Positions 18,502 through 20,090 of a stretch of 64,000 nt of DNA are shown in pieces. Under the pieces are notes generated by a model. It saw only the letters and a list, made by a program, of their open reading frames with translations. It did not search any database and was not told the origin of the DNA. Made by a program: the position numbers and the translations under genes. The stretch spans positions 1-64,000 of the forward strand of contig JACASX010000002.1 in assembly GCA_013390745.1 (NCBI GenBank), written 5' to 3'. Within the stretch, counting starts at the first letter, position 1; each line of letters begins with the position of its first letter. The DNA comes from Marine Group I thaumarchaeote (GTDB lineage: Archaea > Thermoproteota > Nitrososphaeria > Nitrososphaerales > Nitrosopumilaceae).

Positions 18502-18957
18502 CTATTCCTTTTTTTCTTTAGGAGCTTCTGCCTTTGGTTTTTCTTTAGGAGCTTCTGCCTTTGGTTTTTCTTTAGGAGCTTCTGCCTTCTCCTCTTTCTT
18601 AGGTTCCTCTACCTTAATTTCGCCATCATATTTACTGTTAAGTTGATAAATTTCTTCAGATATTGTATTTCCTCTTAATAGCTTCCGTTTTCGCAGACCT
18701 TTTTCTGTTTGTTGTAAACCAACTCCTTTTGGTATTAGGATACGTTTTCTTGCAGAGCCAAGTAGATCTGATCTCATAGGAATACCTGATTTATCACTAC
18801 CACCTGTAATCTTGATCTTTCCCTCTAATCCCACAAGAGAGGCATCTGTTTCTTGACCTATTAGTAGTCCAAGCAAAGGATTCGCATCGTTATCTTTTAG
18901 TTCCCTAGTAATTGATTTTCCTTTTGTGTCAGATATTGTTATCTTGAAGTTGGCCAA
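18502..18957 (-). CDS. rps6e: Ribosomal protein S6e
   Basis: 151 aa. The N-terminal ~100 residues match S6e (FKITISDTKGKSI, then RSDLLGSARKRILIPKGVGL). An unusual low-complexity tail is made of repeated KEKPKAEAP units, encoded by a 27-bp tandem repeat. S6e is a small-subunit ribosomal protein. The tail is probably disordered and charged. It lies 28 nt upstream of aIF2 gamma in the same direction. Confidence 0.94.
   Translation of the reverse strand: MANFKITISDTKGKSITRELKDNDANPLLGLLIGQETDASLVGLEGKIKITGGSDKSGIPMRSDLLGSARKRILIPKGVGLQQTEKGLRKRKLLRGNTISEEIYQLNSKYDGEIKVEEPKKEEKAEAPKEKPKAEAPKEKPKAEAPKEKKE
18514..18588. repeat. 27-bp tandem repeat inside S6e gene
   Basis: Two exact copies and a partial third copy of a 27-bp unit (18514-18540, 18541-18567, 18568-18588) encode the 9-residue KEKPKAEAP repeats at the C-terminus of S6e. 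The frame is preserved, so copy number can change without frameshift. Confidence 0.9.
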
Positions 18958-19006: not shown

Positions 19007-19180
19007 CTAGAAACCTGGTCTGTCTGGAATATAATCCGCAGACATATTCAGTGCCTTCTCTTTCATAATCTCCAAGTAAGTTTCGTAATCTGCCTCAAAG
19101 CTACAGTGTGGACATTTTACTTTTGTAATCTCATCGTCAAGAACCGCAACCTTTTCGCATTCTGGACATCTTGCATCCAT
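19007..19180 (-). CDS. Small zinc-ribbon protein
   Basis: 57 aa starting MDARCPECEKVAVLDDEI, with a CPEC...CPHC zinc ribbon (residues ~5-30) and a conserved-looking tail ADYIPDRPGF. An upstream in-frame ATG would add five hydrophobic residues. The ATG at 19180 is about 25 nt from a TATA stretch at 19201-19210, fitting a leaderless transcript. That TATA is the left copy of the duplicated tRNA-Gly promoter. No specific function is recognised; Zn-ribbons of this kind often bind nucleic acid or protein. Confidence 0.72.
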   Translation of the reverse strand: MDARCPECEKVAVLDDEITKVKCPHCSFEADYETYLEIMKEKALNMSADYIPDRPGF

Positions 19181-19200: not shown

Positions 19201-19272
19201 CTATATAATATTAATTTCAAAACCCGAATTGAACGGAGTTAGTCCAGACTGGCAGGACATCAGCTTCCCAAG
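19201..19272 (+). repeat. Left copy of 72-bp direct repeat: tRNA-Gly promoter plus 5' half
   Basis: These 72 bases match 19985-20056 at 69 positions. They comprise the TATA box, the leader and the 5' half of tRNA-Gly through the anticodon loop, ending at CTTCCCAAG. The downstream half of the tRNA is missing, so this is a tRNA fragment rather than a functional gene. It borders the methyltransferase stop codon (19274) by a single base. Confidence 0.92.
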
Positions 19273-19273
19273 A

Positions 19274-19963
19274 CTAGTCTGTTTTTTGTATTTCAATTAC
19301 TGTTTGATAATCTTCATTTTTATTTGTATTATCAATTTTAAGTGATCTTATATCAAACTCATTTTCGTTTAATCCTATTTCTTTGAATTTTTTCTTAATT
19401 TGAATTATTGAAAAATCATTATAATAACTCCCATCTGTATCGTTCCAATTCATTTTATGTTTTTTTAAATCTGGAAAAAATCCTCTATATGCTGTAATAT
19501 AAGCATATTTTTTGGTTACATTAACAATTTTTGCAACAAACGCATCCATATCATACACATGATCTATTACTGCATGTGAAAAAACTAAATCAAATTTTTT
19601 TGAAATATTCAATTTAATAAAATCTCCCACAAGAAATTCAAACGATGAGTTCTTTTTACATTGTTTGATAGCAGTTTCAGAAATGTCTGTTCCTGTATAT
19701 TTGATGTTAGCAAATAATTCTTTTAATTGTATTGGATAAACACCAGTTCCACATCCTATCTCTAACACGGTTTCTAGATTATTTCTTGTTTTTAGATATT
19801 GAATAAAATCTTGATGTTGAATTTCGTGACATTTATGCATTTTAGTATACCAATTATTTTGTTCATCGCCGTCCTTTTCCTGCCATGTTTTTCCATAACT
19901 AGAATGGCCAAAAATTCCCGTATTTTTGATTTTATTCTTTAGAGTTTCCAGGTTTCTAACCAT
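19274..19963 (-). CDS. Class I SAM-dependent methyltransferase between tRNA repeats
   Basis: About 229 aa with Rossmann motif I VLEIGCGTGVYPIQL and an acidic motif II residue in YTGTDIS. It continues with FLVGDFI and FSHAVIDHV, typical of the Methyltransf_11/25 families; the substrate is unknown. The gene fills almost exactly the space between two direct repeats of the tRNA-Gly promoter and 5' half. I prefer the ATG at 19963 (MVRNLETLK), about 27 nt from the TATA of the right repeat read backwards. A further in-frame ATG at 19984 abuts the repeat. It looks like an inserted cassette. Confidence 0.82.
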   Translation of the reverse strand: MVRNLETLKNKIKNTGIFGHSSYGKTWQEKDGDEQNNWYTKMHKCHEIQHQDFIQYLKTRNNLETVLEIGCGTGVYPIQLKELFANIKYTGTDISETAIKQCKKNSSFEFLVGDFIKLNISKKFDLVFSHAVIDHVYDMDAFVAKIVNVTKKYAYITAYRGFFPDLKKHKMNWNDTDGSYYNDFSIIQIKKKFKEIGLNENEFDIRSLKIDNTNKNEDYQTVIEIQKTD

Positions 19964-19984
19964 GGAACAAAAAACCAATGACAT

Positions 19985-20056
19985 CTATATAATACTAATT
20001 TCAAAACCCGAATTGAGCGGAGTTAGTCCAGACTGGCAGGACGTCAGCTTCCCAAG
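19985..20056 (+). repeat. Right copy of 72-bp direct repeat (intact tRNA-Gly side)
   Basis: This is the partner of 19201-19272, at 69/72 identity. The three differences are one in the leader, one at the first base region of the tRNA (GAGC versus GAAC) and one in the D/anticodon region (GACGT versus GACAT). Here the sequence continues into a complete tRNA-Gly. Confidence 0.92.
19986..19994. promoter_or_regulatory. TATA box of tRNA-Gly, possibly bidirectional
   Basis: TATATAATA lies about 27 nt before the first base of tRNA-Gly, as expected for box A. Read on the other strand it lies at the same distance from the ATG of the methyltransferase (19963), so it may serve both. Confidence 0.55.
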
Positions 20057-20090
20057 CTGGAGGTCGCGTGTTCAAATCCCGCACTCCGCA
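20017..20090 (+). tRNA. tRNA-Gly (anticodon CCC)
   Basis: A complete cloverleaf: acceptor GCGGAGT with ACTCCGC, discriminator A, and anticodon stem TCAGC/GCTGG enclosing the loop TTCCCAA. The T-loop is TTCAAAT. The T-stem GCGTG/CCCGC contains one U-C mismatch (position 52-62) where homologues normally pair G-C. No intron and no encoded CCA. The region upstream and the 5' half are duplicated 784 nt to the left. Confidence 0.88.

Follow-up and report, generated by a model that had tools for sequence, protein, structure and literature searches.

The locus analysed here raises the question of how a single methyltransferase gene came to lie between two copies of the promoter and 5′ half of tRNA-Gly(CCC), next to an intact tRNA gene, and whether an integrase had a part in it. 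We address this within a 64,000-nt stretch of the small genome of a Marine Group I thaumarchaeote, an ammonia-oxidising archaeon (GCA_013390745.1, contig JACASX010000002.1; the whole stretch is called the window) and by comparison with related genomes (G numbers; the window genome is G000), whose assignment to the Nitrosopumilaceae was made by general gene content and the preliminary description of the window and not by a tree. The window genome is a draft in 18 contigs, 86% complete, and the site lies inside a 173-kb contig.

Anatomy of the insert and its empty sites

The 72-bp direct repeat noticed in the preliminary description was reproduced at the same coordinates: its copies (19201–19272 and 19985–20056) are identical at 69/72 positions and end in the anticodon arm of tRNA-Gly(CCC). 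Since copy 2, compared with the whole genome, gave E = 4.7e-28 and the next-best match 0.02, the repeat is not a chance resemblance. The gene content also bore out that exactly one gene, a class I methyltransferase on the minus strand, lies between the copies. The parts of the locus are as follows.

19007–19180, minus strand: zinc-ribbon protein gene, conserved in congeners, ancestral neighbour of tRNA-Gly and left marker of the insertion site
19201–19232, no strand assigned: original bidirectional promoter, copy 1 (TATA box and tRNA leader), from alignment with the congener interval
19233–19272, plus strand: displaced 5′ half of tRNA-Gly(CCC), positions 1–40, the left attachment site, with the same endpoint as in G079, G101 and G120
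19273–20056, no strand assigned: inserted DNA, 784 bp (methyltransferase ORF, second promoter and second tRNA 5′ half)
19274–19963, minus strand: class I SAM-dependent methyltransferase, 229 aa, 26.8% GC (Pfam Methyltransf_31)
19964–19984, minus strand: methyltransferase leader, probably from the zinc-ribbon leader (BLAST similarity and control leaders; suggestive only)
19985–20016, no strand assigned: duplicated bidirectional promoter, copy 2 (TATA box and tRNA leader), from the repeat comparison
20017–20090, plus strand: intact restored tRNA-Gly(CCC), found by ARAGORN

The tRNA part of copy 1 (positions 1–40, 19233–19272) ends just beyond the anticodon loop, where CAGCTTCCCAAG is followed by ACTAGTC; the intact tRNA-Gly(CCC) instead reads on into CTGGAGG. 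The methyltransferase stop codon (TAG, 19274–19276) begins one base past this end, and 21 bases separate its ATG (19961–19963) from the second TATA repeat. Of the three mismatches between the copies, two are substitutions in the displaced 5′ half, which is probably decaying. The restored tRNA has the same sequence in six congeners (96% identity in a seventh) and, since it has also kept a host-type TATA box, is probably functional. Comparison of the repeats revealed no inverted repeats at the ends of the insert and there is no transposase among its genes, so it lacks the marks of a transposon or insertion sequence. Elsewhere in the window (18511–18615), 27-base direct repeats within the ribosomal protein S6e gene encode a repeated (A)EAPKEKPK tail.

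In nine congeners the zinc-ribbon gene, TATA box, tRNA-Gly(CCC) and downstream genes follow one another without the insert, and the 784 bp are missing in every congener with a readable site, including the closest, G008. When the insert is removed and the window flanks are joined, they give one continuous 206-bp alignment to the G008 empty site, as expected if the methyltransferase, promoter and 5′ half had entered together and restored the tRNA. The zinc-ribbon gene is 93–100% identical in six of the closest congeners, and among the 93 family loci at which both it and tRNA-Gly(CCC) could be placed, the gap between them is 50–55 bp in 89, the four exceptions being 113, 141, 797 and 1623 bp. The ancestral order proposed in the preliminary description (zinc ribbon, shared TATA, tRNA-Gly) thus agrees with the relatives, and the comparison of this locus suggested there found empty sites rather than a methyltransferase and tRNA fragment common to all relatives. 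The methyltransferase cassette was seen once among 250 species genomes, with no further copies or places among them. Judged by these alignments, the ancestral order is clear and the insertion is recent, falling after the split from G008.

Several other irregularities at this tRNA were noted in the family. In G083 (L264:1173–2696) a lone photolyase-related gene (PF04244) lies on the opposite strand between the zinc-ribbon gene and tRNA-Gly(CCC), with no tRNA fragment, and in G217 (L265:2431–2847) a 0.8-kb insertion upstream of the tRNA contains an ORF of 138 aa that weakly matches a model for Doc-type toxins. Second tRNA-Gly matches in G075, G140, G151 and G193 were rejected as fragments: they stand at contig ends, where the leaders that can be read are normal, and the assembly seems to have broken at the tRNA. 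When the family was scanned for 5′ halves with a base other than C after them, known fragments turned up only in G000 and G079; the AAGT matches, taken as a group, appear to be complete tRNA variants.

The duplicated promoter and the cargo gene

Copy 2 carries a host-type TATA box and tRNA leader, and such a duplication of the host promoter is found in the window insert only, the elements of integrase-bearing relatives having none. The earlier suggestion that the new gene thereby received a TATA box at a leaderless distance is in keeping with the spacing from TATA repeat to ATG (21 nt for the methyltransferase, 20 nt for the zinc-ribbon gene). BLAST similarity between copy 2 and congener leaders runs on through the methyltransferase leader to the start codon, so that the resemblance to the zinc-ribbon leader probably continues for ~21 bases past the TATA repeat; if these are counted, the duplicated block may reach ~93 bp. 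Among 71 TATA-associated leaders, that of the methyltransferase was the best match to several zinc-ribbon leaders, and against the seven nearest of these it gave p = 0.001–0.035 in shuffles. It is suggestive, but not firm, that the methyltransferase leader derives from a zinc-ribbon leader. Were this so, the foreign DNA would, with the same reserve, consist of little beyond the ORF with a duplicate zinc-ribbon promoter attached; template switching or a promoter imported by homology would explain this, a site-specific integrase does not.

The methyltransferase itself (E = 9.5e-19 against Pfam Methyltransf_31) has the lowest GC content, 26.8%, where 53 large ORFs of the window have 36.6 ± 3.4%, and its nearest relatives are 42–56% identical and patchily distributed in the family. 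Given this composition, the patchy relatives and the empty sites, horizontal acquisition of the gene is well supported on sequence grounds. The genome contigs scanned contained only distant methyltransferases (≤38% identity), viral contigs yielded nothing related to the methyltransferase, the integrase described below or the tRNA 5′-half pattern, and a phage collection gave one weak methyltransferase match only. Most relatives sit among genes that, by eye from their translations, resemble those for glycosyltransferases, sugar epimerases and aminotransferases, and from these neighbourhoods we infer that the cargo is probably a glycan-modifying methyltransferase, acting perhaps on a surface glycan. 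Stretches of 8–12 kb around nine relatives contained no tRNA, so the gene is not in itself a marker of tRNA cassettes. In one glycan cluster (G088, L057:5087–7382) two diverged copies of the methyltransferase family flank a single gene.

Integrase attachment sites at tRNA-Gly(CCC) and tRNA-Thr(CGT)

When the family was searched with tRNA-Gly as query, G079, G101 and G120 proved to have a 5′ half separate from the intact tRNA. In all three the zinc-ribbon gene and its leader are followed by a tRNA 5′ half with the same anticodon-arm endpoint as in the window, and the intact tRNA-Gly lies on another contig, preceded by new sequence. This new sequence forms the first part of a tyrosine integrase akin to PF16795 (archaeal phage integrase), a model that detects the family weakly, the matches falling just under the family cut-off; a PDB search with the integrase gave no match. 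The integrase frame runs antisense through the tRNA-Gly 5′ half, and the motif LGKLTSYQxxxTP occurs twice: at the far end it follows the N-terminal MLSKTEREYL..., and next to the tRNA it precedes the catalytic ...RHYFLP, so that the gene is split by integration, as in the ‘suicidal’ integrases of SSV type. As read from these genes, 5′-half (pTN3-like) suicidal integrases do occur in Nitrosopumilaceae. Within the genus of the window, G022 carries a truncated integrase (LGKLTSCQSGLTPLTDFSKNLTKNSNH...) directly upstream of tRNA-Gly(CCC) (L119:12791–13085), and in G217 a degraded stretch upstream of tRNA-Gly resembles, by eye, an integrase remnant. A near-perfect inverted repeat, TTACTGTTTTTAGTAAGA / TTCTTACTAAAATCAGTAA, abuts tRNA-Gly in G022, and similar sequence is present at the attR of G079 and G120.

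The preliminary description had regarded duplication of the 5′ half as setting the insert apart from integrase elements. This part did not stand: G079, G101 and G120 use the same tRNA, the same half and the same crossover, and 5′ targeting by pTN3-like elements is known (PMC8371274). Its statement that the cassette holds no integrase was correct, and it can be extended in that no integrase of the matching family was found in the window genome (86% complete) or its genus by searches in which PF16795 is insensitive.

We then compared each tRNA near the 35 tRNA-family matches of the window genome with its surroundings, ~5 kb to either side as far as the contigs reached. Whether other tRNA loci hold fragments, as the preliminary description had proposed to check, received a divided answer: the only 5′-half copy is that of the window's tRNA-Gly, and the only other long perfect half copy is a 3′ half. 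It belongs to tRNA-Thr(CGT) (G000:C4:29979–30052), whose 3′ half recurs 44/44 identical at C4:27523–27566, 2.4 kb off. This cassette (G000:C4:27523–30052, L142:9024–11553), outside the window and on a different contig from the tRNA-Gly cassette, has its junction at the anticodon loop and contains two genes only, for an inositol-1-phosphate cytidylyltransferase/CDP-alcohol phosphotransferase and an inositol monophosphatase-like protein. Such inositol-phosphate genes stand beside tRNA-Thr in 0/12 other congener loci read, G008 included, and the joined flanks give a 642-bp alignment to G008 at 95.8%. In G070, G059 and G091 an integrase of the same family abuts a tRNA-Thr(CGT) 3′-half fragment that begins in the anticodon loop, the integrase frame continuing through the fragment; in G070 and G091 the intact tRNA-Thr, adjoined by an int(N) piece, is 12–13 kb distant. 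Neither cassette contains an integrase or an integrase remnant. Taken together, the Gly and Thr comparisons place both integrase-free cassettes at attachment sites of one integrase family, in each case at the same tRNA half.

Further tRNA fragments and a tRNA-like match were observed in the course of these comparisons. The match (G000:C2:102183–102240), which scored below threshold, stands 120 bp from a tRNA-Val gene and on the other strand; it may be a degenerate tRNA or one with an intron. 3′-half fragments of tRNA-Cys(GCA) (L270:8060–8101 and L271:6569–6610) lie beside integrases of the same family, whose frame here does not continue across the fragment. In G158 (L361:4656–12000) a tRNA-Thr(CGT) 3′ fragment lies beside genes that resemble, by eye, Cas1 and a 939-aa family B polymerase; this neighbour is probably a casposon.

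Origin of the insert and its relation to known elements

Starting from what is observed directly, i.e. the anatomy, the empty sites, the crossover held in common with integrase-bearing elements and the second cassette, we infer integrase catalysis, a circle and supply in trans. We consider it rather probable that the insert is a cargo-only insertion at an attachment site of the Nitrosopumilaceae family of SSV-type tyrosine integrases, with the integrase acting in trans or since lost; similarly, the left junction may well have been made through recombination in the anticodon loop by an integrase of this family. The methyltransferase would have travelled on a small circle together with a duplicate of the tRNA-Gly(CCC) promoter and 5′ half, and this circle would have recombined with the chromosomal tRNA within the 7 bases of the anticodon loop; the integrase would have come in trans from a resident element, or been encoded by a gene since lost. 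The chromosomal 5′ half would be displaced and left to decay, and the incoming 5′ half would join the old 3′ half to restore the tRNA. Because the insert carries a host-type bidirectional promoter, expression of the tRNA would be kept and the methyltransferase would receive its TATA box at a leaderless distance. In favour of such a course, the crossover point in G079, G101 and G120 is that of the window, and the Gly and Thr sites are both used by the integrase family. Supply in trans is not an ad hoc assumption, since elements with suicidal integrases can be excised by a related, complete integrase provided in trans (PMC8371274). Against it, the cassettes lack an integrase, and none of this family was found in the genome or genus; the host promoter, and perhaps the zinc-ribbon leader, is duplicated; and an integrase gives no reason why the insert should start one base from the methyltransferase stop codon and its unique part should stop close to the start codon. 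The viral contig collections yielded neither a circle nor a free form of the cassette.

A decayed element is hard to separate from a circle mobilised in trans, and the probability we attach to it is contained within that of cargo-only insertion. Here a larger suicidal-integrase element with the methyltransferase would have entered tRNA-Gly, deletion bias in a streamlined genome would have left only the cargo, and the host promoter would have been regained from an empty-site allele. That such decay happens is seen from the truncated integrase beside the same tRNA in G022, the degraded integrase-like stretch in G217 is in agreement, and the displaced half, with two of its 40 bases substituted, shows some age; however, regaining the host promoter needs a second recombination, and both cassettes are clean and younger than the G008 split, the 44/44 Thr repeat leaving little time for decay. 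On these grounds we favour the circle mobilised in trans and think decay of a larger element somewhat unlikely. In a scenario without any integrase, template switching or microhomology-mediated repair during replication would have placed a copy of the ORF in a broken tRNA gene and then copied the promoter and 5′ half a second time. In its favour are the boundaries of the insert, almost at the start and stop codons, and the host-like duplicated block with its promoter and perhaps leader; the single photolyase-like gene that entered the same interval in G083 with no tRNA fragment may be a parallel. Such an illegitimate event does not predict a breakpoint at the integrase crossover of three relatives, nor another cassette at a different site of the same integrase family, and we regard it as unlikely.

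It is quite improbable that homology brought in a donor fragment from a related strain whose methyltransferase and tRNA-Gly already had one promoter in common, the end at the anticodon loop being illegitimate. In copy 2 the promoter is indeed nearer to G008/G007 (ACCAAT; ATACTAA in G008) than is that of copy 1, which resembles G002/G006, but CCCGAATTGA is common to both copies and seen in no relative, and no donor arrangement with the methyltransferase was found. A simple recombination tract was also discarded, sliding identity showing no clean switch of closest relative at the insert. Finally, an assembly artefact is very improbable indeed: although the genome is incomplete and in 18 contigs, the contig around the site is 173 kb long, three positions distinguish the copies, and a like cassette stands on another contig.

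To our knowledge, archaeal tRNA-targeting elements are known with their integrases. If cargo-only insertion is true, two clean insertions at the sites of one family would mean that single metabolic genes can be added to a streamlined archaeal genome with hardly any extra DNA, and a genome with two such cassettes would make trans-mobilisation of integrase-free cassettes directly testable. Only tentatively, and with the chances rather against it, do we extend this to marine small-genome Nitrosopumilaceae in general, which might gain single metabolic genes as integrase-free cassettes riding on a suicidal integrase supplied in trans; a cassette would consist of cargo and a tRNA half (here with the promoter), the docking sites would be the Gly-CCC 5′ half and the Thr-CGT 3′ half, and the tRNA gene (here with its bidirectional promoter) would be regenerated at every insertion.

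Considering known systems, the pTN3-like suicidal integrases of Thermococcales have the tRNA 5′ half as attB and express the tRNA from the integrase promoter (PMC8371274). The window insert shares with them this attB and the intact tRNA restored on integration, and with SSV/pTN3 elements in general the insertion into the anticodon loop with a tRNA half at both ends. It differs in having a single gene and the host's own tRNA promoter in place of the integrase promoter, and in lacking an integrase; a tyrosine integrase split into int(N)/int(C), with attP inside the integrase gene, is seen in G079, G101 and G120 and not in the window. Since no integrase is carried, we do not file the insert as a member of the SSV/pTN3 type. 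Like a satellite, it uses an attachment site in common with an autonomous element (the Gly site here, the Thr site for the second cassette). In the ‘gene capture’ of SSV-type elements, as far as it is recounted in PMC8371274 (citing She et al. 2001/2004), genes become fixed between tRNA-half repeats; the likeness lies in archaeal chromosomal genes left between tRNA halves after integrase loss or partition, and the difference, within that account, in the absence of both int(N) and int(C) from the window and in its single cargo gene. The integrated mobile elements (iMGEs) and cryptic integrated elements of thaumarchaea likewise have tRNA genes as targets, in the same phylum, but are multigene, and all but one of the tRNA-targeting iMGEs use the 3′ part, the sole 5′ exception being CalSub-E1 at tRNA-Ser in Caldiarchaeum (PMC6563490); to this one case for the whole phylum, 5′-half suicidal integrases in Nitrosopumilaceae can be added. 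Caldiarchaeum also has a tRNA-Thr 5′ fragment beside a 1.8-kb insertion, which is similar in that the fragment lies upstream of an intact tRNA with a small insertion between, and different in encoding a putative recombinase and having several genomic copies (PMC3293823). Tycheposons and ‘hitcher’ elements, likened here by description and not by sequence, are likewise tRNA-bounded cargo in small-genome plankton, with a helper-dependent mobility such as the window insert may have had; the tycheposons described, however, carry a tyrosine recombinase gene and a multigene body at a tRNA border and span 4–200 kb (PMC10872708, PMC11389934), where the window insert is one methyltransferase gene.
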